This document shows, piece after piece, positions 46,356-57,237 of a stretch of 57,958 bases of DNA. Each line of letters starts with the position of its first letter. Position 1 is the first letter of the stretch. The position numbers and the translations under genes are program-made. A model generated the notes under the pieces. That model ran no database searches and was not told where the DNA came from. It saw only the letters and a list, made by a program, of their open reading frames with translations. The stretch comes from Roseofilum reptotaenium CS-1145 (GTDB taxonomy: Bacteria > Cyanobacteriota > Cyanobacteriia > Cyanobacteriales > Desertifilaceae): contig NZ_JAQMUE010000018.1 in the NCBI RefSeq assembly GCF_028330985.1, forward strand, positions 1-57,958, in the 5' to 3' direction.

Positions 46356-46427
46356 GCCCGTGTAGCTCAGTGGTAGAGCACACCCTTGGTAAGGGTGAGG
46401 TCACGAGTTCAATCCTCGTCACGGGCT
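46356..46427 (+). tRNA. tRNA-Thr(GGT), integration site
   Basis: Acceptor GCCCGTG/CACGGGC, D-arm GCTC/GAGC, anticodon stem CACCC/GGGTG with loop TTGGTAA (anticodon GGT), T-arm ACGAG/CTCGT. Discriminator T. From the anticodon stem onward it is part of the 61-bp direct repeat (46382-46442), whose second copy is at 54364-54424, so this tRNA is the attachment site of the element to its right. Confidence 0.97.
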
Positions 46428-46442
46428 TTCTTTTTACTCCCT
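46382..46442. repeat. attL: 61-bp direct repeat
   Basis: Exact 61-nt match to 54364-54424. It spans the tRNA-Thr 3' half from the anticodon stem plus 15 bp of downstream flank. Marks the left junction of the integrated element; the tRNA gene stays intact at this side. Confidence 0.95.
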
Positions 46443-46445
46443 CTC

Positions 46446-46494
46446 TCACACCTTACCAATGGCATCCTCTGCCACTTGAGCTACAACGTACCGG
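46446..46494 (-). other. tRNA-Thr-like 5' fragment just inside attL
   Basis: On the minus strand it reads GTAGCTCAAGTGGCAGAGG, a D-arm, followed by ATGCC ATTGGTAA GGTGT, an anticodon-arm-like stem with GGT in the loop. It resembles the 5' half of the adjacent tRNA-Thr(GGT) but is clearly diverged, has no T-arm and lies in inverted orientation 4 bp inside the repeat. Could be a decayed element tRNA or a leftover of an earlier recombination. Confidence 0.55.
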
Positions 46495-46554
46495 CGTATC
46501 ATCCCATCATTGTACCTTAAGTGGTCTATTAATGGTCTAGGCGGCTAAGTACCC

Positions 46555-47079
46555 CTAGAGCCACCTTGAGTTCAAAAACGGGTAATCCTCCACGTCCTGC
46601 TCGTCAGCCAAGCCAAGGTAAGTTGCCATTACCTGCCCTCTAGCGTTAGTGAAGCACTTAAAGGGGTCTACCCTTCTCCACCAGAAGCCCTTGCTATCCT
46701 GCTTGTAGGTACGTTCGTGAAAAGCCCTAATCATTCGCTCGGTGAAGTGCCCCGTCTCCCTGAGTTGTTGCTTAGTCAGGTATTTTCCCAGGTAGGGGTT
46801 TAATCCCTTTGGCGACTCTGGCAGTGTCGGCTTCTTCGGTTCGTCACCCCTAGATCGGAGAGGAGTGGGATCGCATTTCACTCCGTTAAGCAGGGGAATG
46901 TATCCGTCGTCAAAACTTCCTCTGATGAGTCCTTGGGACTGCGCTTCCCTGAGAACGGCACACGCTAATCGGACTCCCCTGGATAGGTTCCCTTCTCCTA
47001 TCTTCCTCAGCAAGCGCTTATCTTCATCCGATAATCCAGTGATTGGGGTAATTCTTCTTTGGTGGGTGGTGGTGGTCAT
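46555..47079 (-). CDS. Element protein, hypothetical
   Basis: 174 residues from ATG 47079 (the frame opens at 47124, but this ATG precedes a normal start MTTTTHQRR). Basic and mostly helical. Features are LRKIGEGNLSRGVRLACAVLREAQ near residues 25-48, a KGLNPYLGKYLTKQQLRETGHF segment (about 100-120) and WWRRVDPFKCF near the C-terminus. No known domain recognised. It is the outermost gene on the attL side; that position often carries cargo. Confidence 0.7.
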   Translation of the reverse strand: MTTTTHQRRITPITGLSDEDKRLLRKIGEGNLSRGVRLACAVLREAQSQGLIRGSFDDGYIPLLNGVKCDPTPLRSRGDEPKKPTLPESPKGLNPYLGKYLTKQQLRETGHFTERMIRAFHERTYKQDSKGFWWRRVDPFKCFTNARGQVMATYLGLADEQDVEDYPFLNSRWL

Positions 47080-47163
47080 AGTGTGTCGGCTGTGGGTGTC
47101 CCTTAGTATATACAGCAGCGTCACCCCTCTCGTAGGGTAACGTCCAAAGTATATACATTATCT

Positions 47164-47213
47164 GTCTACCCTAATCGTCATACTGCGAATTTTAGGGTAA
47201 ATTTTAGGGTAAA
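47164..47213. repeat. TTTAGGGTAAA-type sites, cluster 1
   Basis: Two head-to-tail copies of TTTTAGGGTAAA (47190-47201 and 47202-47213) and one TACCCTAA half-site (about 47167). The same word recurs as a palindrome at 47721-47744 and near 52736, so it behaves as an element-specific site. Confidence 0.75.
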
Positions 47214-47248
47214 CTCAAGGCAGAATAGAGACGTAGAAAGGAATGCCG

Positions 47249-47464
47249 CTAACCCTTCTTCGGCTTATAGGGATTGTCTCTCCCTGTTTTCTCACAATAA
47301 TCGCTAATAGCCATTGCCATGAAATCTAGTGTTTCCTTAGTGTCAGCGAGTAATTCATATCCAATCCCCTCCTCCTTCTGGCTATTTTTCTTTAATTCCT
47401 TTCTGGTCTCTTGTACGGCATTGGTTAGCCTCCGATTTATTCGTTTAACTTTTCTCCTAATATT
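47249..47464 (-). CDS. Possible small coiled-coil protein of the element
   Basis: A frame closing with TAG at 47249-47251 encodes about 70 residues of coiled-coil-like, Lys/Glu-rich protein containing LADTKETLDF and MAISDYCEKTG, similar to AVSDYCDEHK in the small gene at 723-896. There is no ATG, GTG or TTG near the upstream end of the frame. An ATG with a CGGAGG ribosome site lies in another frame, so a frameshift may have occurred. Possibly decayed. Confidence 0.4.
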   Translation of the reverse strand, partial: NIRRKVKRINRRLTNAVQETRKELKKNSQKEEGIGYELLADTKETLDFMAMAISDYCEKTGRDNPYKPKKG

Positions 47465-47720
47465 TTAGCAGAGGGTATATGTGTGGGTGTATCACTAATA
47501 TTTACCTTAAAATTAAAGGTAAAATTAAAGGTGAATAACGGTAGGAGAGATAATAAGAGAAAGGATGATTCTTTCTTACAGCTCTTGTTGCACTTTGTAA
47601 GAGTATTATCCAAGCTAAAGTCATATAGGGAATGGATTTCGGGCGATCGCCTGAAAAGGTAGTAACCCAGTCAGGTAGTCCACTGAAGATGTCCATCCTA
47701 TCAATATTTACCCATCAACT

Positions 47721-47744
47721 TTTACCCTAAATATTTAGGGTAAA
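47721..47744. promoter_or_regulatory. 24-bp perfect palindrome of the TTTAGGGTAAA site
   Basis: TTTACCCTAAAT/ATTTAGGGTAAA, fully self-complementary. Two inverted copies of the iterated word. Likely a dimer-binding operator or replication-protein site. Confidence 0.75.
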
Positions 47745-47752
47745 TATCACGC

Positions 47753-47763
47753 GGGGGGGGGGG
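47753..47763. repeat. Run of 11 G
   Basis: Homopolymer of eleven G in non-coding DNA next to the palindrome at 47721. Such tracts slip during replication and are also prone to sequencing error. Confidence 0.9.
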
Positions 47764-47811
47764 TAATAGGCGAAACAACGGATCTATCTTCCTGATTCAT
47801 CCCCTTTAGAT

Positions 47812-48251
47812 TCAATGATTGCCTTTCATTGCCAATCTGCATAAATTCAAAAAACATTCTTCTCTGAATTCTTCTGGTTCAATAGCCTTAGAAGACATGC
47901 GCCCACCGCCTTCATCACTAAAGTCTCTATACTGAATGGCTATAGTTCCACTTGCGTAAAGTTCCAATTCTCCATGGTTACCACCTTCAAGGAACCCCCT
48001 GTATAAAGGTCAGTTGAAACGTGCAAAGAATGACGATAATCACCTGCGTCAGAATCACGATAGAGTAGTGAGCTTCCGTGCTCTAAAGTATTCCACCGAA
48101 TGATAATTTCAATTAAATCACTACCTATATACTCTTTTAATCTATTCAGGAAAAGTAAACGCAATTCCTCGTCTTCTTTTCGCATCCCTGCTATTTGTCT
48201 CTTGTTGACTTCTTCAGCTAAATCGTGGTGTAGGTCGTCAAATGAATTCAT
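47812..48251 (-). pseudogene. Element protein with -1 frameshift at a G5 run
   Basis: From ATG 48251 the frame reads to STDLYTG (about residue 84). At the run of five G (47995-47999 on the plus strand as C) it then passes into an unlikely end that stops at 47940. Shifting by -1 there gives a continuous sequence GNHGELELYASGTIAIQYRD and then SSKAIEPEEFREECF..., stopping at 47812, for a coherent protein of about 146 residues. Either a mutation, a sequencing error or programmed frameshifting. Function unknown. Confidence 0.65.
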
Positions 48252-48334
48252 CTTTTTTCTCCAAATTTAAGAACCTCATCAAGTCTATCTTACCTGATGA
48301 GGATTGGCACATTTATTGGGGGAATAACAAATAG

Positions 48335-48697
48335 TTATGTAGCAGCGTAATACGAGCGTGCAGTGGTATTGCATTGCACGGCGACAAGGAAATATTCAAG
48401 GAAAAAGTGAAAGCCTTCCTTATTTTCAATCCACGCTTGAACCATTGGGTCAGGATGTGAGAAATTAGGGTCAAATACAACCCAATACTTCCATTGATTA
48501 ACGTCCAAATCAAGCTCCACCCCGTCAACCCTATGAATATAGGGACTGTCGTCAAATTCCTCATAATTGAGTTTAACTTTATCCCCAACGTTAAACCGAT
48601 TCGCTCCTGGGTAATCTGATTCGTTGATGTAAGTGTAATACTGCCGCTCGTCGTCATTCGCTTGCCAAGCGGAAATTGGCACGAGAACTTGTACCAT
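48335..48697 (-). CDS. Element protein, family of the 162-578 pseudogene
   Basis: 120 residues from ATG 48697 (a longer frame to 48727 exists). AGGAG lies 8 nt upstream. Conserved features shared with the pseudogene at 162-578: VQVLVPI start, YYTYINESDYPG, FNVGDKV, then a Trp-rich strand and HPDPMVQAWIEN. FNVGDKV suggests an SH3/KOW-like barrel, as in its neighbour at 49468. Function unknown. Intact here, dead in the other copy. Confidence 0.75.
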   Translation of the reverse strand: MVQVLVPISAWQANDDERQYYTYINESDYPGANRFNVGDKVKLNYEEFDDSPYIHRVDGVELDLDVNQWKYWVVFDPNFSHPDPMVQAWIENKEGFHFFLEYFLVAVQCNTTARSYYAAT

Positions 48698-48753
48698 ATT
48701 AGATGCTCCTGATTGTGAGAGAACCACGATTGGGAGAAGTCTTGGGAGTGGTA

Positions 48754-48963
48754 TTAGTAGTACCCTCTCAAGGCGTTAAATTTTCCCTCGCTGATAAGAA
48801 AAGAATTTAAAGGGAACCCCCACTTAGCGCAAGGGGTAAACGTACACAAATCCTTCACTATTTCTAATGTAAACGATCGATAAATCTCTATTGCACAGTA
48901 GTAGCCCCACGATAACTCTTCTGGAAGTTGTACTACTTCACCCATACCCATAGCGGCTGACAT
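48754..48963 (-). CDS. Small element protein, hypothetical
   Basis: 69 residues from ATG 48963, with AGAGGG 4 nt upstream. N-terminal MSAAMGMGEVVQLPEELSWG, then a segment rich in aromatic and cysteine residues. No known family. Lies upstream of 48335-48697 on the same strand with a 56-bp gap. Confidence 0.45.
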   Translation of the reverse strand: MSAAMGMGEVVQLPEELSWGYYCAIEIYRSFTLEIVKDLCTFTPCAKWGFPLNSFLISEGKFNALRGYY

Positions 48964-49467
48964 TTGCCCTCTAAGGCGGGTTACCCCCTTAAATGGGCAA
49001 TCGTACTTAAGGGGTGCTCTTTCGTGAAAACCCTTATCCCGTAAGGATTTCAGCCGTTAGATAATACATTTCATGTTACACGAAAGTTCACTTTATTGCA
49101 TATTACTACCGTACAGCGGTATTACACCCCTCCGCTTGTGCAGATAGCTTGCGTCATAGATTCATTGCACATTACCGGAAAATAGATGTTCAGGAAAAAA
49201 AGCTGTCCTATCAGACTCCTATAGGGTTGTGATAGGACAGTTAGCCAATAATCAGTACATTCAGGAAAGGATGTTGATTCGCTATTAAGGATATCAATTT
49301 ATTGCACATTACTATTGTTCAGTAGTGCTACCGGTTATTCAATCAAAAGCCCATCTTGTGACCACTGGGAAGAGCCGCCACAAGATGATTTAGGTTATGC
49401 GATTGTCAGGGGACAATGACTATAAAAAGCGATTAGAGGCACTCTCGATATTTACCTCACACCCCTC
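48964..49467. other. Non-coding region with a terminator and repeated words
   Basis: 504 bases without a supported gene. Holds a terminator for the upstream minus-strand gene (49195-49240) and several copies of ATTGCA(C/T)ATTAC followed by imperfect palindromes such as TACCGTACAGCGGTA (about 49106-49121). These may be regulator sites for the downstream small genes. Confidence 0.55.
49195..49240 (-). terminator. Intrinsic terminator downstream of 49468-49902
   Basis: 11-bp stem CTGTCCTATCA/TGATAGGACAG (49203-49213 with 49230-49240). On the minus strand it is followed by a run of seven T (A-run 49195-49201). Confidence 0.85.
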
Positions 49468-49902
49468 TTAACGAGGCTCTAAATCATGAGAGAAGTAAGT
49501 GTAAGTCCCATTCCAATCCTCCTCCATTGCCCCTATCTTCACCTTCAGACCCCATTTTCCTTTTTCGTCTTGGGGATGAGTGATAATTGCCTCTAGTTTC
49601 CCTCCATCAGGGGTGATTGCCCAAACTTTATCGCCCACAGCATAGTCTTCAGCATCACGAGCCTTCAACGTGTCTAGGCTAAAAAAGGACTCTTTCCACT
49701 CTCCTTTTAGGGATATATATTTACACTTCCATTCCCCGTGTTCATTAGTAGGGGTAGTGATTACTCCTGGACGTTTCCCAATCCAAACTTTATCGCCAAC
49801 AGAGAAGGGCAGATTTTTCTCATTTTCTTGCGCGTGCGAACATGTAGGGGTTTGACCGTCATGACCGTCATATCCTTGATATATGGTCGATTTGACCGTC
49901 AT
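49468..49902 (-). CDS. Element protein with two SH3/KOW-like repeats
   Basis: 144 residues from ATG 49902. Two copies of a roughly 55-residue unit: FSVGDKVWIGKRPGVITTPT (about 33-52) and YAVGDKVWAITPDGGKLEAI (about 91-110), each followed by a WK/WG strand and a Phe/Tyr-rich end. The VGDKVW motif is typical of small SH3-like barrels that bind nucleic acid or protein. The start overlaps the 3' end of the primase/helicase gene by 35 bp, so the two are probably co-transcribed and translationally linked. Confidence 0.75.
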   Translation of the reverse strand: MTVKSTIYQGYDGHDGQTPTCSHAQENEKNLPFSVGDKVWIGKRPGVITTPTNEHGEWKCKYISLKGEWKESFFSLDTLKARDAEDYAVGDKVWAITPDGGKLEAIITHPQDEKGKWGLKVKIGAMEEDWNGTYTYFSHDLEPR

Positions 49903-52192
49903 GGTTATGGGAATATGACGATGATGACGATGAAACTACTGTTGAACTTTTTTCGTCAGAAAGAAGGGTTTCGCTGGGTAGTGGTACGTTTACATGGCTA
50001 CAATCGCCCCTGTAGTCAATCCCAAAGAACGTCTTACCAGACATTTTCTTCACCGATTTAACTTCCCACCCTAAGAATTCACACATCTCTGTTAATTTGT
50101 TACCAAATCGATTGGTAGCCATTGGCTTGAGTCCATTCTCCTCGCAATAGATGACGTATTTGTGGTACAGCTCCCCTTGTTTGATTACTCCATCCCCAGG
50201 AACCGGCACTACTTTGTCCTCTACAAATGCCGCTACAGAACTCTCCTCGCAAAGGAGTTCCCATTCTTTCGCTTTGAAATCAGCAATAGCAAATTGCCCT
50301 ACACCTTTGATGAGGTCGTCAACTCTCTGAGGGGGCATAGAGAGGACGCAATAGGTTAGCTGGGATATCTCTCTCATCATCAGCTCTTCGGCTAGGGGGG
50401 TCCGATTAACGATTGGTGAATCAAACTCCACTAGACATAATCGCCTCTCTAAAGCCTTCTGTGGCTTCTTGAATAGCGCTCCATTGGAGATTACGAGCAA
50501 TGTCCCATGAAAAGGGCTAGAAGCAACTTCACCGTAAATTTGGCGGTATGAGACAGTATCCCCACCAGTGAGACTCTTTAGATTAGCCATAGCGCTGTCG
50601 CAGTGGGTAGCTTCCTCGTCGGGCAAAACAACTAGCTGGCTATCCATGAAGTGCGCCAACTGATAATCCTCTCCCAATTTGCCAAGCTTAGAGGCTTTGG
50701 TATTTTCCTCCCCAATCAATGCGGATAATATTCGGGAAAATGTCCCTTTTCCGGTTCCAGGTCTACCCGTTAAATGAATGAATTTGTGAAGCTTGGACAA
50801 TCGCCAAGTTATAACACCATTACATACAGCCATCAGCTTAAGGATTTTCCTTTCATCCCCTACCATGGCGTAATTCCACGCCTCGTAAATATTTGGGCAA
50901 TAGGTTTTCAGCGCTTCAATTGGGTCGGCGATCACTTCTCCTTCTGGTTGCCACCAGTCCCGGTCAATCATGCTGGTGTTATAATTTTCCGGGTCATGGG
51001 GCTTGATTGTCATCTCCCGAAGATTCACTACTCCGTTGCGAAATGCTGTTGCCTCAAGGGTTTGGCGTTGCCATTCCCACTCTCGGAGGTTTCGCGTTAA
51101 GGATTTCTGGCACATGGTGACATACCTGTCGGTGCTAATCCACGATTCAGATAAAAAGTGAATAGCATCCCCAACTTTTTCTTCTGGGATAATCTGCCAG
51201 TATTTCCCGCTCCATTCCAGCCAGACTTTCCATTCATTGTGAAATCGCCATTTATTACGATATTCCTCTGCTAATTGACGAGCAAATTCTACTGGTGTAG
51301 GGTCACCATTCCCCTCCTCTTCAGATTTGCCCTTCTTGGCAGGGGACTCTTTCTTTTGTTCTGGTTCTGGGAATTGTTTTTCCCATTCAGCAATGGTTAA
51401 AGCCAACCTAATTACCTCGTCAAAGTTGCCGCCATTGACAATAAAATCATCCATACCTTTAGTTTTTTTCGTGTACTTCCACACGCATATCTTGACATCA
51501 CAGCCACGTTCATCTAATGCCTTGGCAAGCCTCCTAATTGATTCCTTTACGTCTGGGTTTATCTGGAAGTCTGAATCCAGCGCGATGTAGACAGGTCTCC
51601 CCTCAGAGCAAAAATCGGCAAGAGAAGTAACAAGCTCCAGGGTTTGTGGTTTGTGCCACATTTCCCGACCGGGGATAGAAATAGTCAAATACCCGTTTTC
51701 AAGTCCACACGCGGCTTTCTTGCCTCCTTCTGTGATGACGATGGGTAAATGGTCTTGCGAGTTCACCACCTTCCACAAGTCCTTGGTCAGGCAGTTGTTC
51801 CACTGTTCCTCAGAAGCAAAAAGTGGCTTCAACTTTCCTGCTAGGGAGATGAAATCCTTCAGTCTTCCACGGAGCAGTAGTGCATCGTAAATACAACCCG
51901 TCTCGCCTTCTTTCCTTCTGCGGGTCTTGTACTTTGCCCCATCTTTCCCAACCTCGCGTAGTCGTAACTGCCATGAGTTACTGTTAGTCTTTCCTGTGAT
52001 GTCAACCCCAGTAACGGTAAACCCTGCTTTATGGGGTTTGAACTGCTTTACCAGAACCGGATTGGTGATTCCAGATTCCGACAGTTGCTGCGCTAGCCAT
52101 TTCTCATTAGTCGCCTGAGAATCTGCTACAATGGGGGAATCAGAAATTGAGGGCGTTGCGAGACTACCCTTAGAAGCGTTATTATTTGACAT
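49868..52192 (-). CDS. Primase/helicase-type replication protein (DUF3854 and D5/P4-like)
   Basis: 774 residues from ATG 52192. The N-terminal half has a Toprim-like (DUF3854) core: PIVITEGGKKA with Glu155, then YIALDSDFQ with the metal-binding Asp206/Asp208, then KGMDDFIVNGG. The C-terminal half (from about 385) is a superfamily-3-like ATPase with Walker A TGRPGTGKGTF (475-485), Walker B QLVVLPDEEA, and a following winged-helix-like end. This primase-helicase architecture is used by phages, satellites and plasmids for their own replication. The Ser-rich end (residues about 750-760) is probably disordered. Principal replication gene of the element. Confidence 0.88.
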   Translation of the reverse strand: MSNNNASKGSLATPSISDSPIVADSQATNEKWLAQQLSESGITNPVLVKQFKPHKAGFTVTGVDITGKTNSNSWQLRLREVGKDGAKYKTRRRKEGETGCIYDALLLRGRLKDFISLAGKLKPLFASEEQWNNCLTKDLWKVVNSQDHLPIVITEGGKKAACGLENGYLTISIPGREMWHKPQTLELVTSLADFCSEGRPVYIALDSDFQINPDVKESIRRLAKALDERGCDVKICVWKYTKKTKGMDDFIVNGGNFDEVIRLALTIAEWEKQFPEPEQKKESPAKKGKSEEEGNGDPTPVEFARQLAEEYRNKWRFHNEWKVWLEWSGKYWQIIPEEKVGDAIHFLSESWISTDRYVTMCQKSLTRNLREWEWQRQTLEATAFRNGVVNLREMTIKPHDPENYNTSMIDRDWWQPEGEVIADPIEALKTYCPNIYEAWNYAMVGDERKILKLMAVCNGVITWRLSKLHKFIHLTGRPGTGKGTFSRILSALIGEENTKASKLGKLGEDYQLAHFMDSQLVVLPDEEATHCDSAMANLKSLTGGDTVSYRQIYGEVASSPFHGTLLVISNGALFKKPQKALERRLCLVEFDSPIVNRTPLAEELMMREISQLTYCVLSMPPQRVDDLIKGVGQFAIADFKAKEWELLCEESSVAAFVEDKVVPVPGDGVIKQGELYHKYVIYCEENGLKPMATNRFGNKLTEMCEFLGWEVKSVKKMSGKTFFGIDYRGDCSHVNVPLPSETLLSDEKSSTVVSSSSSSYSHNHDGQIDHISRI

Positions 52193-52291
52193 AGTATTTT
52201 CATATTTTGTGAGCCGGACGGGGATGACCCTCCGGTTATTTTTTTTGTGTGGTCATCCCACACTTGCAATTCTACACCACTTTTCAGTAAT

Positions 52292-52603
52292 TTAGAGCAA
52301 CTCTATCACCTCCAGAGCTTCGCGTATCTTCTCCTTAATCTTTGTGCCAGCGTTAGCCTTTAGAGACAGCGCTTCATTTAGGATGTTTTTGACGAGTGAA
52401 ACGTCTGGAGATTCAGTGAGTTGTCCTGAGTCAGACTCCTCTGCGTCAAGCTTTCTTGCGTAATCCAGGATATCTTCTGCTAAATCTTCTGGTACTCTAA
52501 TGGCTTTTGTTTTGTTGGTAGACTTCCACTTAGAGCGGATTGGTCTTAGTCCTTCTGTGTTTCGTTCATGTGTCATTGTTATTACTGTACAGTTGCTTTG
52601 CAT
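52292..52603 (-). CDS. Small DNA-binding-type protein of the element
   Basis: 103 residues from ATG 52603, or 94 from ATG 52576. The motif KTKAIRVPEDLAEDILDYARKLDA resembles the N-terminal strand and helix of ribbon-helix-helix-like proteins often found next to replication genes. The rest is helical with an acidic middle (DAEESDSG). It lies 100 bp upstream of the primase/helicase gene on the same strand. A TACTGTACA word overlaps the longer start, favouring 52576 as start. Possible regulator of replication; not proven. Confidence 0.6.
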   Translation of the reverse strand: MQSNCTVITMTHERNTEGLRPIRSKWKSTNKTKAIRVPEDLAEDILDYARKLDAEESDSGQLTESPDVSLVKNILNEALSLKANAGTKIKEKIREALEVIELL

Positions 52604-53092
52604 GGACTGAGCTATTGATTCGCTCTTATCTGTATCCCCCTTATTTACAGATTAATCCTCACCGAAAAGATGGCGGTATTCCCATTAAGGATTTACAGTA
52701 AACGTTCGCTCTAAATCTTCAGAGATTGTCGATACGTTTACCCTAAAATTTAGCGCCGGCATGTAAGGTGGTATAGGGTGGGAAGTAGTGGGCTAAAGTA
52801 TTAATAAATTAGACCCTCTAAATTATGGCTAATCAACGGGGCATTCTCGCGAATAAACCGTATTGGACATAATCTGTTTTCTCCTATTTAGGTGTGAGTA
52901 TTTTTTTGTCCCCAATGGACTTCATTCACGTCTACACTACTACTGTACACTAAAACTACACTAAAACCGCATTGGTTGCAGGACTCATCTATTTGTTTTC
53001 TCTATGATTTCATTGAATACCATTCATGCTAATCTATCTTTGGCATGAATCAAACCAACAGTACAGAGCGAGATTTACTGTAAATATTTACT
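52604..53092. other. Non-coding region between integrase and DNA-binding gene
   Basis: 489 bases without a convincing gene. Contains a 29-nt imperfect direct repeat (52690-52718; partner at 53072-53100), a TTTACCCTAAAAT site near 52737, and several TACTGTACA-like words (about 52934-52945). Candidate origin, excision or control region. Confidence 0.55.
52690..52718. repeat. 29-nt direct repeat, copy 1
   Basis: GATTTAC-GTAAA...CTCTAAATCT pattern, 24 of 29 identical to 53072-53100. Contains the palindromic TTTACAGTAAA. Confidence 0.7.
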
Positions 53093-53100
53093 CTAAATCT
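53072..53100. repeat. 29-nt direct repeat, copy 2
   Basis: Partner of 52690-52718; it overlaps the last codons and stop of the integrase gene. Contains TTTACTGTAAA. Confidence 0.7.
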
Positions 53101-54289
53101 CTGGTAACTCAATATCGTCATCTGGAGCAAAGTAATGTTTGTCGAGCATTTCTCCTGATGTCTCGAATAACTTTGCAATCGTAGCTCTATCTACTCCATT
53201 CCTTAGATAAAAAGATGCAGAAGTATTTCTCAAGTTGTAAGTGGGGAGTTTGTACCTTACAACCCTTATCTCCCATAGGCAATTGATTACATAGTTAAAT
53301 ATTTTCGTCGTGAAGTTTTGGAGGTTGATATAGCCTCCTTTTGGTGATGGGAAGACCAGGTTAAAGCTGTTGTTGCTTACGGGATTCCTATATTGCCTTG
53401 CAATACATTCTTTCAATCCCTTACTGAGTGGGAAGTGTCGCGTTTTTCCATTTTTCGTAGACTTTAATTCACCCAAAGAATAAGATTTATTGAATCTGAT
53501 TTTATCGTCATCAATGTCATCCCAAGTTAGTGCAATCGCTTCACCAGGACGGCATCCTGTCAATATCAGGAACTCCACAAAGGGATAATAGTGACTGTGG
53601 TCAAAAGCTGACTTTTCAGAGCAGAATCTATCAGACTCAAATGCTTCTAGTATTGCCTTGATTTCTCGTACTGTGTAGGCTTTGTTCGTGCGTTTGGACT
53701 CATCTTTACCTACCTTCTTTGGTAGTTGTTTCTTGATATCTTTCCAATGATTTTTAGGAATATGACCGCAATTAAAAGCGAGATTGCTGGCGGCTACCAA
53801 AGAAGCCAAGACTCGTTGTAGGGTGTGGTAAGTGTAATATTCTAGTAATTTTGGAGTTATTTGATATGCATTATCAGGTAACGTTTCCTCATTAGATATT
53901 TTTGCTAATGCATTATCTACTGATTTCCAGTGATTCTTTTGAGTCGTTGCTGGTGTTGATTCTGTGTTGTAATCTTTGTAAAAATTCCAAACATCAACGA
54001 GTGACCATTGTACAGCCTCTTGTTTTTTGCATCTTTCTTGATGCTTGTTAATTGCTTTTTGATTTTGTACGTGATGAGATTGATAGTTCTCCAATGACGG
54101 GTCAAACGTGCCCAATCGGATATCACGTTTTATTTCCTCTGCCCTGACATTGGCAACTGACTGTGCTAAAGAATCGCTCCAGTCTCCGAAGCCCGATAAG
54201 CAATATCGCTTACCTTGATACGTCCACCGAAGTCGGATGGACCCCCCATTATTTCCTTTGCTTATCTTAGGTATTCTTACTCTTTTCAT
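53093..54289 (-). CDS. int: Tyrosine recombinase (integrase) of the element
   Basis: About 398 residues from ATG 54289 (frame opens at TTG 54352). An N-terminal Arm/AP2-like part (SIRLRWTYQGKRYCLSGFGDW), a SAM-like core-binding domain, and the catalytic domain: first arginine in LTGCRPGEAIALTWDDID, the second box YNLRNTSASFYLR, and the nucleophile region TSGEMLDKHYFAP with the tyrosine. The second box has Tyr and Asn where many family members have His residues, so activity should be verified. Located at the attR side, as usual for tRNA-targeting elements. Confidence 0.9.
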   Translation of the reverse strand: MKRVRIPKISKGNNGGSIRLRWTYQGKRYCLSGFGDWSDSLAQSVANVRAEEIKRDIRLGTFDPSLENYQSHHVQNQKAINKHQERCKKQEAVQWSLVDVWNFYKDYNTESTPATTQKNHWKSVDNALAKISNEETLPDNAYQITPKLLEYYTYHTLQRVLASLVAASNLAFNCGHIPKNHWKDIKKQLPKKVGKDESKRTNKAYTVREIKAILEAFESDRFCSEKSAFDHSHYYPFVEFLILTGCRPGEAIALTWDDIDDDKIRFNKSYSLGELKSTKNGKTRHFPLSKGLKECIARQYRNPVSNNSFNLVFPSPKGGYINLQNFTTKIFNYVINCLWEIRVVRYKLPTYNLRNTSASFYLRNGVDRATIAKLFETSGEMLDKHYFAPDDDIELPEI

Positions 54290-54363
54290 AGCCGTTTTGG
54301 TCTGTATGTGGGCTATGGTATGCCGGTATCGCCTAGAGTCCTTGCCTGACAAGAGATTTAGCG

Positions 54364-54424
54364 ACCCTTGGTAAGGGTGAGGTCACGAGTTCAATCCTCG
54401 TCACGGGCTTTCTTTTTACTCCCT
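54364..54424. repeat. attR: 61-bp direct repeat
   Basis: Second copy of the 61-bp repeat. It contains only the 3' half of tRNA-Thr from the anticodon stem, plus 15 bp downstream, and is followed by what is probably the original chromosomal flank. Confidence 0.95.
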
Positions 54425-54437
54425 ATACTTAGGGCTA

Positions 54438-54461
54438 AACGACGCAAATACGTCGTTTTTT
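54438..54461 (+). terminator. Terminator, probably of the original tRNA-Thr transcript
   Basis: 7-bp stem AACGACG/CGTCGTT with a 6-nt loop followed by TTTT. It lies 13 bp beyond attR. Before integration it would have followed the tRNA-Tyr/tRNA-Thr pair; the element has displaced it by 8 kb. Confidence 0.8.
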
Positions 54462-54938: not shown

Positions 54939-55257
54939 GATAATTTTTAATATACTACCTTATGCATACTTAACTTAAGAGGGGATGAAAAATAGAATTA
55001 ACTTTAAACCGTGCGAATTTGTGCGAAATAGGCTGAACCGCTATCTGTGCCTTGATTTTAGCCGTGCGAATTTTGTGCGAAATTCGCACACCCCCTTGTA
55101 TTACGGTGACGTTGGTAAATGCCGTAATATATGGCATTTAGCGTAGTACGTCAGGGAAACATGTATTATATTGTCCGAAAAAACGACATTTAAACTGTAA
55201 TGTGCAAAGGCGTTGCAGTTAAGGTATAATTTAAAAAAAACGCTTCACGTTGATGGC
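54939..55257. promoter_or_regulatory. Divergent control region with GTGCGAA repeats
   Basis: Two near-identical 21/22-nt units (55009-55029 and 55062-55083), each CCGTGCGAATTT(T)GTGCGAAAT, plus an overlapping inverted repeat GTGCGAA/TTCGCAC (55075-55089). Located between the helicase operon (+) and the 54588 gene (-). Probably a regulator-binding region. Confidence 0.6.
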
Positions 55258-57237
55258 ATGAAATTAAGCTTATACCAGAAGAAAATATTAGAGTGGGTGA
55301 AAACCGGACGGGGAAATGCTTGCTGTAATGCTGTAGCCGGTTCGGGAAAATCAACCACATTGAAATATGCGGCCCTGGCGCTGCGCGAAAATGGGGTTCG
55401 CCCTTCGCAGATAAAAATTTGCGTGTTTGGCAAGGCGAACGCCAATGATTTGATTGAGAAGTTTGGCCTGGAATGGAAATCATCAATTTCCACCTTGCAC
55501 AGCACTGGGTTTTTCCTTGTGAAGCGATATCTGGGGATTTGGAAGCCAACAGTTGATAAGAATAAGTACCGGAAAATAGCCCAGGGATTTGACTTGATTG
55601 GGCGACGCGGATATCCGATAGGAAATTTGCGGAAGCAAAAGGCTTTAGATAATGATGCGGATTTCTTGGAATTGCTCGACCTGGTACGGCTGACGAACAA
55701 ACAGCCAACTCCAGGAACGATCGCCCAAATCTGTCAGCATTTTGAGTTGCCCGATGTGCGGGATTTCACTTTGGTTTCCAGGGCGATCGCCAAGGTATTG
55801 GCTGCGGGAAAAAATCAAGCGAGTGATGAGTCTATTTTTGATTATACCGACATGCTTTGGTTGCCGGTGCATTGGCGGGTTGATGAGAGTCGCGGTTTTC
55901 GCCCATGGCAGTTTGTTCTCGTTGACGAAGCGCAGGATTTAAATGCTACCCAATTGGAATTAGCCTGTATGATGGTGGGCGATCGCGGCCGCATGTTATT
56001 CGTGGGCGACCCCCGCCAGGCGATAATGGGTTTTGCTGGCGCTGACTGCGATAGCTACCAGAATATTGTCCGTCACGTCAGAGGCACGGAATTACCCCTA
56101 AGCCTCTGCTATCGCTGCCCTACAAAGCACATTGAATTGGTGCGGGGAGTTTTCCCCAAAATCCCCATAGAGGCTTTCCCGGAAAATGAAGAAGGGGTAA
56201 TTACCACCATTTCTGAAAAGACCCTCTTTGGTGAGGAACACGGGGCGCTGCGCGAACAAGACCTAGTGCTGTGCCGCAAAACTGCCCCATTGGTGAGCCT
56301 CTGTATTAAGTTGATTGGCGCGGGGATGTCCGCGACGGTGAAAGGGCGGGCGATCGGGGACACCTTGAAGAAGGTGATAGAGGAGATTGAGAGGTTGGAG
56401 CTGCCGTTTGCTGAGTTTAGTGAGGCGATTTCCTTGTACCGCAAAGCCAAAGCTGAACGCTACAAGGGGATGGACAATGAGGAGGAGCTGCTGGAGCAAC
56501 TGACCGATAAAGTTGATGCCATTCGGGCTATCTACGAATCCCATCCAGAGGCAAAATCAACTGAGGACTTGGGGGAGGCGATCGACCAGTTGTTCTCTGA
56601 TGAGCATAGCCCGATTACTCTTTGCACCGTTCACCGGGCAAAGGGGTTGGAAGCCGATCGCGTCTTCATTATTGAGCCTGGGGATATGCCCATGCGGTGG
56701 CGTAACCAAATGAAATGGCAGAAGGAGCAAGAGGACAATATTCTCTATGTGGCGCTAACCCGAAGTAAACGGGAGTTGTTCATTGTTGGCGATCAGGACT
56801 GGGGGACTGAGAAAGGAGAGAATCAAAGAAGGGGTTGGCCTGAGTTATTTGGGGTCGATGAGCCAGAGCCATCGATTAGCGATTATGCTATAGAGTACAG
56901 GGGCTTTACACCGTTGGAGACCTCGCAGTGCGAATCAATTTCAGCCTCTGGGGAAGAGAAGGAATCGGAGCGCAGCGAGGTGGAGTGCGAGGTGCTTGCA
57001 CCATTGCCAGTTAAGGAAATGACGCAGATAAGAATGGCGATCGCCGACCTGCCTTTGATTGAAAAAAACCGGTTACTCCTGGAGCTGCAAGAACAGGTCA
57101 ATGGCGAAAAGGAAAATCGGGTGCGATCGCACATCCTCAGTAATCCGGGGTTGAGTAATCGGGCGATCGCGCGCGAATTGGGGTTCGTCAGCGATGTCAC
57201 CGTTGGTCGAATCCGCAAAGTGATGGAGGAACAATGA
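55258..57237 (+). CDS. UvrD/Rep-type helicase with C-terminal HTH
   Basis: About 659 residues from ATG 55258 (a longer frame exists from 55213). Superfamily-1 motifs are present in order: I AVAGSGKSTTL, II LVDEAQDLNATQ, III FVGDPRQAIMGFAG, IV LSLCYRCPT, V TVHRAKGLEADRVF, VI YVALTRSKRELFIVG. Unlike UvrD (about 720) it ends with an added helix-turn-helix-like segment (LSNRAIARELGFVSDVTVGRIRK). The stop codon overlaps the ATG of the next gene (ATGA). Likely a specialised helicase, perhaps for defence or mobile-DNA functions. Confidence 0.9.
   Translation: MKLSLYQKKILEWVKTGRGNACCNAVAGSGKSTTLKYAALALRENGVRPSQIKICVFGKANANDLIEKFGLEWKSSISTLHSTGFFLVKRYLGIWKPTVDKNKYRKIAQGFDLIGRRGYPIGNLRKQKALDNDADFLELLDLVRLTNKQPTPGTIAQICQHFELPDVRDFTLVSRAIAKVLAAGKNQASDESIFDYTDMLWLPVHWRVDESRGFRPWQFVLVDEAQDLNATQLELACMMVGDRGRMLFVGDPRQAIMGFAGADCDSYQNIVRHVRGTELPLSLCYRCPTKHIELVRGVFPKIPIEAFPENEEGVITTISEKTLFGEEHGALREQDLVLCRKTAPLVSLCIKLIGAGMSATVKGRAIGDTLKKVIEEIERLELPFAEFSEAISLYRKAKAERYKGMDNEEELLEQLTDKVDAIRAIYESHPEAKSTEDLGEAIDQLFSDEHSPITLCTVHRAKGLEADRVFIIEPGDMPMRWRNQMKWQKEQEDNILYVALTRSKRELFIVGDQDWGTEKGENQRRGWPELFGVDEPEPSISDYAIEYRGFTPLETSQCESISASGEEKESERSEVECEVLAPLPVKEMTQIRMAIADLPLIEKNRLLLELQEQVNGEKENRVRSHILSNPGLSNRAIARELGFVSDVTVGRIRKVMEEQ

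Follow-up and report, generated by a model that had tools for sequence, protein, structure and literature searches.

We analyzed a 57,958-nucleotide stretch of the Roseofilum reptotaenium CS-1145 genome (hereafter the window), contig C18 of a 5.67-Mb, 113-contig assembly from the genus Roseofilum, and within it an element integrated at a tRNA-Thr gene. The element is bounded by an exact 61-bp direct repeat (46382–46442 and 54364–54424, the copies 7982 bp apart), and the delimited 7.98-kb interval holds an integrase, a replication protein (Rep) and small genes. The attachment (att) sites, genes, open reading frames (ORFs) and non-coding features are as follows.

46356–46427, plus strand: tRNA-Thr(GGT), intact at attL, the integration target (ARAGORN; Rfam tRNA, 71.5 bits)
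46382–46442, plus strand: attL, the first copy of the 61-bp repeat, from the anticodon stem to 15 bp beyond the tRNA
46555–47079, minus strand: 174-aa protein, the end marker; frame open to a GTG at 47124
47191–47213, minus strand: two tandem TTTACCCTAAA motifs
47721–47744, unstranded: perfect 24-bp palindrome TTTACCCTAAATATTTAGGGTAAA, a candidate operator or iteron
47940–48251, minus strand: 103-aa ORF with no detected relatives
48335–48727, minus strand: 130-aa protein, conserved in the two sister elements at tRNA-Thr (blastp, 63% and 52%)
48754–48963, minus strand: doubtful 69-aa ORF with no family match, from the ORF list only
49043–49240, unstranded: conserved non-coding stretch downstream of rep, 82–83% identical to L047
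49468–49902, minus strand: 144-aa ORF, the Rep C-terminal domain in a separate frame
49868–52192, minus strand: Rep, 774 aa, with DUF3854 (toprim-like), D5_N, a DUF5906/superfamily 3 (SF3)-type helicase and a Pox_D5 winged helix
52292–52603, minus strand: 103-aa protein upstream of rep, with the motif ILxxALxLKANAGGxIKxxIxxALxLL; related to pCC5.2 ORFc
52737–53097, plus strand: intergenic region between integrase and rep, with two further TTTACYCTAAA motifs (52737–52747 and 53087–53097)
53093–54289, minus strand: tyrosine recombinase, 398 aa from the ATG at 54289, frame open to a TTG at 54352 (Pfam Phage_integrase, 1.1e-13; phrog_1 integrase, 6.9e-39)
54364–54424, plus strand: attR, the second copy of the 61-bp repeat
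54437–54458, plus strand: terminator-like hairpin outside attR, 12 bp beyond it

The repeat starts at position 27 of the 72-nucleotide tRNA, on the 5' side of the anticodon stem, and a 17-mer taken from it has only two exact matches across the 58-kb window. The element thus has what is expected of a clean tRNA-integrating element, with the 3' part of the tRNA repeated at both ends and an integrase adjoining an att site. This integrase reads inward from attR, its ATG lying about 75 bp away, and the minus strand carries every element gene that has relatives (integrase, upstream 103-aa protein, Rep, 144-aa ORF, 130-aa protein and 174-aa protein). Recomputation confirmed the exact repeat, the intact tRNA at attL, the integrase beside attR and the 7.98-kb span, all of which had been described in an original prediction made from the sequence. 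That prediction also placed the displaced tRNA terminator past attR; a hairpin is indeed present at 54437–54458 and is probably the displaced tRNA-Thr terminator, an identity that the weak terminator scan leaves at that strength (11 found in the window against 7.5 expected from shuffles, so that single matches carry little weight). A promoter scan of the window returned 9 against 14.1 expected and was discarded. The three tRNA genes in the 58 kb were the sole RNA families, a match to mir-277 (24.5 bits, below the gathering score) being taken as chance.

Comparison with five other genomes of the genus (G001–G005) reveals that this tRNA-Thr is a recurrent site of insertion. The same gene is occupied in two sister species, by a 6.56-kb element in G005 (locus L047) and a 6.76-kb one in G002 (locus L048), each with 50-bp repeats as its limits. 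The sequence beyond attR in G002 is found in G004 directly after the tRNA-Thr (92.6% over 2.6 kb, with ~120–170 bp unaligned), and the G004 gene is, by this alignment, the empty site relative to the G002 element. G003 has no second repeat within the 6.9 kb from the tRNA-Thr to the contig end, and the G001 contig stops 204 bp after the tRNA-Thr, which makes the site unreadable. Across the six genomes the site is therefore occupied in three, empty in one, without a second repeat in one and unreadable in one. These comparisons rule out a repeat created by duplication in the assembly, which the prediction had named as grounds for doubt, since related elements with their own boundaries sit at the same tRNA-Thr in two other assemblies and G004 provides an empty site. 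The empty site that the prediction called for was found for the sister G002 element; for the window element it is not demonstrable, because its right flank has no match in the five other genomes. Near the G005 contig end, attR is directly followed by a further integrase, broken into two pieces and belonging to a second element (L047 9161–9896), as expected of a tandem insertion at the same tRNA-Thr.

The window Rep combines DUF3854, matched by its N-terminus at 7.5e-28, with a P4/D5-type primase-helicase, and the DUF3854, D5_N, DUF5906 and Pox_D5 matches bear out the Toprim-like/SF3-like replication protein originally proposed. It keeps the residues that are invariant across a five-row alignment, including the Walker A lysine. 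Whereas the C-terminal domain is fused to Rep in L047, L048 and L008, in the window it is separate and overlaps the end of rep by 35 bp (49868–49902). This overlap adjoins a TCA/TCG-rich linker. DUF3854 is also the N-terminal domain of CyRepA1 (pSYSA) and CyRepA2 (pCC5.2), both of which, according to excerpts of the published reports, have been shown to support plasmid replication (PMC9978351, PMC10079941), with a theta mode proposed for CyRepA1 and rolling circle for CyRepA2 (PMC10899382, PMC10079941). Searches of sequence records returned 144 Rep matches on plasmids, five of which cover at least 80% of Rep, and 302 in phage records, which are distant, fall in the helicase part and in no case cover 80% (the best 20 of the 302 show 21–26% identity over 51–57%). 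The best plasmid matches are thus longer and closer than the phage ones, even though phage records are more numerous.

The 103-aa protein encoded upstream of rep (52292–52603) provides a further link, as it matches small proteins on five plasmids, all typed non-mobilizable. On pCC5.2, ORFc lies 62 bp after the DUF3854 Rep and its C-terminal motif is 58% identical to the 103-aa protein over 38 columns. The relative on p2-NIES88 sits beside a VapE-type Rep in the opposite orientation, and that on pAL20115c precedes a VapE-type Rep with another small gene between them; the plasmids with VapE neighbors are 3.1 kb and 5.8 kb. On the Synechocystis B12 plasmid the ORF neighboring the relative has no Pfam match. 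From the four plasmids inspected, the order of the 103-aa-type gene relative to Rep varies.

A relative of the element is also present on a probable free circle of 11.4 kb in G001. This contig (G001:C65, locus L052) is 11,561 bp long, and we read it as circular because its 141-bp terminal overlap would be the mark of an assembly made with k = 141 (the record bears the label k141). It carries relatives of rep, the upstream 103-aa gene and the 174-aa gene, the Rep being 45% identical over nearly the whole window Rep, and the integrase profiles recognize no integrase on it. A run of membrane-protein-like genes is also found there (L052 146–4033), with a 432-aa ATPase weakly similar to FtsK/terminase and a peptidoglycan hydrolase with NlpC/P60 and GH108 domains; by gene content, L052 may be either a small unrecognized virus or a plasmid whose transfer module is unusual. 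The FtsK-like and hydrolase genes were considered as a transfer module shared by the family and rejected, each occurring in none of the 52 other loci and the ATPase in no PLSDB plasmid. Another contig, G042:C1 (L142; 11,147 bp, 68-bp terminal overlap), carries a gene of 617 aa resembling an ATPase together with a relative of Rep and is perhaps another free circle.

The elements at tRNA-Thr further reveal that parts of Rep are exchanged. Between the window and G005 elements, identity is 61% for the integrase, 51% for the 103-aa protein, 63% for the 130-aa protein and 41% for the 174-aa protein, and in Rep it is 47% over residues 1–318 and 44% in the C-terminal domain, whereas the helicase part yields no blastp alignment (E 1e-3). 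The helicase family thus differs at a single tRNA-Thr, being D5-type in the window and VapE-type in G005. The G005 Rep scores 26.3 bits against DUF5906, just below the 27.6 cut-off, so the two helicases may be distant SF3-type kin. The reverse swap is seen at L053, where a window-type helicase (54%) stands behind an N-terminus without DUF3854.

Related genes extend to other tRNAs, so that a search for the same gene set at tRNA-Thr and elsewhere, as suggested at the outset, found relatives at both. In the window genome, Rep relatives lie on C100 (918 aa, by a tRNA-Pro), C75 (decayed, tRNA-Gln) and C112 (a contig-end fragment, tRNA-Ser), and a 793-aa relative on C77 aligns in the helicase half and the C-terminal domain and does not align in the DUF3854 part. 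A gene of ~1,024 aa on C105 is distant, matching the DUF3854 region only, and all five genus-mates have a counterpart of it. At the tRNA-Gln (L010 4653–10797) we see a decayed cousin with a 37-bp att pair, a long integrase frame and Rep in pieces. Genus-wide, related Reps or end-marker genes are found by tRNAs for Pro, Gln, Ser, Arg, Ala and Val and by a second tRNA-Thr; a further relative of the integrase lies by a tRNA-Val, as do the G005 Rep and integrase of L053.

At the level of the order, a Rep profile (E ≤ 1e-60) matched 44 of 291 genomes, five of them in this genus. The search scored at most three candidates per genome and listed at least 58 places, 48 of which are outside the genus; we inspected 32 of these 48, selected in part for the length of contig available. 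Six of the 32 have Rep enclosed by a tRNA and a direct copy of that tRNA's 3' end (Arg, 10.1 kb; Gly, 6.3 kb; Pro, 5.3 kb; Cys, 8.0 kb; Phe, 8.4 kb; Cys, 9.1 kb). Two further places are units of a tandem array at a tRNA-Ala(CGC) (G092:C35:120907–163887; L118, L119, L151), in which the units repeat at 21,490 bp, three att copies are present and the 13.1 kb compared are 100% identical. One place is a 16.3-kb unit bounded by 29-bp repeats with no tRNA. Repeats of up to 820 bp in L103 resemble gene duplications and were not taken as att sites. An integrase of at least 316 aa is present in 16 of the 32 loci, and DUF3854 in five of the six order-level Reps scanned (L105, L113, L114, L117 and L118, with L109 lacking it). 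In one genome (G091; L109, L110), a 3.8-kb core that is 99.4% identical occurs at both a tRNA-Gly and a tRNA-Pro, with a separate integrase at each site that lies outside the shared DNA.

Together, these data lead us to conclude that the element is probably a small cyanobacterial plasmid, now integrated, whose replicon gained an integrase. The plasmid origin is argued by DUF3854, which is common to plasmid Reps, and by the relatives of the 103-aa protein that adjoin Reps on small plasmids; the mobility is argued by the sister elements, the G004 empty site, the G001 circle, the 3.8-kb core present at two tRNAs and the tRNA-Ala tandem array. Beyond this anatomy and the mobility apparent from comparison, we infer how excision, replication and transfer would proceed. 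The integrase would recombine attL with attR to give an 8-kb circle, on which Rep, with its primase-like domain and SF3-type helicase, would start replication at an origin in some intergenic region. The upstream 103-aa and 174-aa proteins may control copy number or excision, perhaps via the TTTACCCTAAA palindromes. Reintegration would take place by crossover in the anticodon stem-loop, which would restore the tRNA. As no transfer machinery of its own was recognized, spread from cell to cell would need outside help, by natural transformation or through a helper plasmid or phage. The family could then evolve by module swaps, with a change of integrase giving a new tRNA target and a change of helicase domain perhaps a new compatibility.

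Several observations weigh against this interpretation. Full Rep function is uncertain because Rep is split into two frames. Its C-terminal half is P4/D5-type and not of the CyRepA1 type, and the CyRepA1 model (NCBIfam NF042913) does not match the window Rep, where the control, pSYSA CyRepA1, scores 1.2e-178. A PDB sequence search with Rep returned a sole match, the DNA primase 7ola, which we take to be the SaPI5 satellite primase-helicase. No replication origin was located in the element, and neither an excised circle nor an empty attachment site (attB) of the window element was found, contig C18 containing only the integrated form. The G001 circle, with different cargo and no recognized integrase, is a relative and not the same element. 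Finally, 24 of the 32 places inspected outside the genus have no visible tRNA-bounded unit; these unbounded loci, some of which are plasmids, argue against every such Rep residing in a tRNA element.

Three other explanations, which are not mutually exclusive, were weighed against an integrated plasmid replicon. The original prediction saw in the element a possible undescribed type of satellite, and a minimal phage satellite resembling P4 or the phage-inducible chromosomal minimalist islands (PICMI) would excise on cyanophage infection, use its own primase-helicase and be packaged by a helper. The size, the integrase with a DUF5906 primase and the small number of genes do resemble PICMI as described in excerpts of the report (PMC10803314), which is equally minimal. 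The distant Rep matches in phage records and the lone primase match in the PDB point the same way, and the tRNA-Ala tandem array could conceivably feed concatemer packaging. However, the element DNA has no match in 50,697 phage records, and Rep, the integrase and the 174-aa and 103-aa proteins have no confirmed relative in IMG/VR by a pattern scan, which detects only short-peptide matches. Neither AlpA nor terminase is matched among the eight element ORFs scanned, and both DUF3854 and the 103-aa protein speak for a plasmid, so we consider a satellite quite unlikely and an integrated plasmid the better fit.

It is also unlikely, in our judgment, that the element is an integrative mobilizable element (IME) or an orphan origin-of-transfer (oriT) element that relies on a host conjugative plasmid for its transfer. 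A tRNA integrase joined to a replicon without machinery of its own would suit such an element, and of the 144 plasmid records that match Rep, 44 are typed mobilizable and 18 conjugative; on the other side, the same eight ORFs include no recognized relaxase (oriT was not searched) and the five plasmids with a 103-aa relative are typed non-mobilizable. We likewise give little credence to a decaying, immobile remnant of a larger element. The two frames of Rep and the long non-coding stretches would be accounted for in this way, and the tRNA-Gln cousin at L010 is truly decayed, but the window element retains an exact att pair and a full-length integrase frame, its Rep keeps the alignment-invariant residues with the Walker A lysine, and the core genes are conserved in the sister elements.

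In all 11 bounded elements inspected, the integrase reads inward and is no more than ~300 bp away from one of the att sites; its start in L047 is uncertain because the tRNA itself contains the beginning of the open frame. It is proximal to the tRNA in six (L047, L048, L113, L114, L117 and L118) and distal in five (the window, L010, L105, L109 and L110), so that the two types of element at tRNA-Thr are oppositely oriented, with the integrase adjoining the tRNA in L047 and L048 and remote from it in the window. Tyrosine integrases are known to target the anticodon-loop and T-loop regions of tRNA genes, and the repeat starts fall in these two regions, at tRNA positions 27–32 in nine elements and 51–53 in two. 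Our integrase profiles merge several subfamilies and were used solely to call the presence of an integrase. In two of the tRNA elements, a gene pair lies as cargo beside an att site (L114 5203–6145 and L117 4687–5623) and resembles a RelE-type toxin with a Panacea-type antitoxin.

The small genes had been described as orphans, which does not hold for most of them, as the upstream 103-aa protein is related to plasmid genes and the 174-aa and 130-aa proteins recur in sister elements; the description stands only for the second 103-aa ORF (47940–48251) and the 69-aa ORF. The absence of packaging and conjugation genes, in contrast, was upheld, none being recognized among the eight ORFs scanned (cos and pac sites were not searched), nor was an FtsK-like transfer protein. 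The 174-aa protein has no Pfam, PHROG, NCBIfam, PADLOC or PDB match, and its N-terminus is ribbon-helix-helix-like by eye only. Matches to its family occur in four of the ten genomes of the taxonomic family, all within the genus. In a set of 13 loci that leaves out a short match (G005:C167), the gene has a tRNA within 450 bp in eight (Thr-GGT, Gln, Ser, Pro, Arg, Ala twice and Thr-CGT) and the distal att copy within 450 bp in two, with neither tRNA nor att so near in three (L132, L138 and the circular L052); from the tRNA density of the window, placement by a tRNA would occur by chance at ~5% per locus. A PADLOC defence search of six small element ORFs gave no match, and iterated profiles built from the 144-aa and 69-aa ORFs lost specificity, picking up Rep and other proteins, and were discarded.

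The non-coding sequence contains candidate regulatory sites. With up to one mismatch, TTTACCCTAAA occurs eight times in the window, seven of them inside the element, where 1.5 are expected for the whole window. The palindrome TTTACCCTAAATATTTAGGGTAAA has an exact copy in L047 and a second place there with two mismatches, and L048 holds four exact 11-mers of the motif, one of them within rep. In the window element, L047 and L048 alike, the motif occurs both in the integrase–rep interval and next to the 174-aa gene; we read it as a possible operator or iteron. Within the conserved stretch downstream of rep, a hairpin (49203–49240) with a run of seven T after it on the minus strand is a possible rep terminator; its loop exceeds the limit of the terminator scan, which hence did not list it.

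Elements that integrate into tRNAs, small DUF3854 plasmids and minimal satellites are already known kinds, and we regard the present element as a variant whose novelty lies in their combination and in the exchange of helicase and integrase cassettes. Self-replicating, plasmid-like elements that integrate into tRNA genes are familiar from the pSAM2-type actinomycete integrative and conjugative elements, from which this one differs in having no FtsK-like transfer protein. Like the element, the plasmids pCC5.2 (CyRepA2), p2-NIES88 and pAL20115c pair a 103-aa-type gene with a Rep, of the DUF3854 type in the first and the VapE type, as in L047, in the other two; unlike it, they are free plasmids with no listed integrase, and on pCC5.2 the small gene follows Rep, whereas the element's 103-aa gene precedes it. 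CyRepA1 plasmids carry the CyRepA1 helicase in place of the P4/D5-type helicase of the window Rep. PICMI, given in the excerpts as 6.1 kb with int, alpA and prim, a DUF5906 primase and a fis site, shares with the element a size of ~6–8 kb, an integrase with a DUF5906 primase and very few genes (PMC10803314); the element differs in using tRNA-Thr instead of fis, in having DUF3854, and in lacking AlpA among its eight ORFs and a known helper. The tycheposons of Prochlorococcus are likewise tyrosine recombinase elements at cyanobacterial tRNA genes, described in excerpts as 4–200-kb cargo carriers (PMC10872708, PMC10187409), a likeness by description. Among titles and abstract openings, with most subscription papers and the original tycheposon paper outside this set, we found no published tRNA-integrated DUF3854 element.

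It is possible, and we advance it only tentatively, that these loci represent an undescribed, order-wide class of integrative plasmids, some perhaps carried in helper virions, in which the integrase, setting the tRNA target, and the helicase domain, setting replication specificity, are independently exchangeable cassettes around a mostly DUF3854 replicon, and that many chromosomal plasmid-type Reps are its replicases. A 2024 survey reports, in the excerpted text, chromosomal CyRepA homologues in 80 of 145 cyanobacteria, with their function awaiting validation (PMC10899382). The elements described here, most of which have DUF3854, offer a candidate answer, in that part of these genes could be replicases of tRNA-integrated plasmids. 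The family would also supply work on cyanobacteria with replicons and with natural integrase/att pairs, each specific to a tRNA, and the tRNA-Thr locus opens to study the exchange of a helicase domain with both ends of Rep conserved.

Just beyond attR, the chromosome carries a UvrD-like helicase gene (55213–57237), which has a match (56%) in one of the five other genomes of the genus at E 1e-50 and matches GajB/UvrD models at the family level only.

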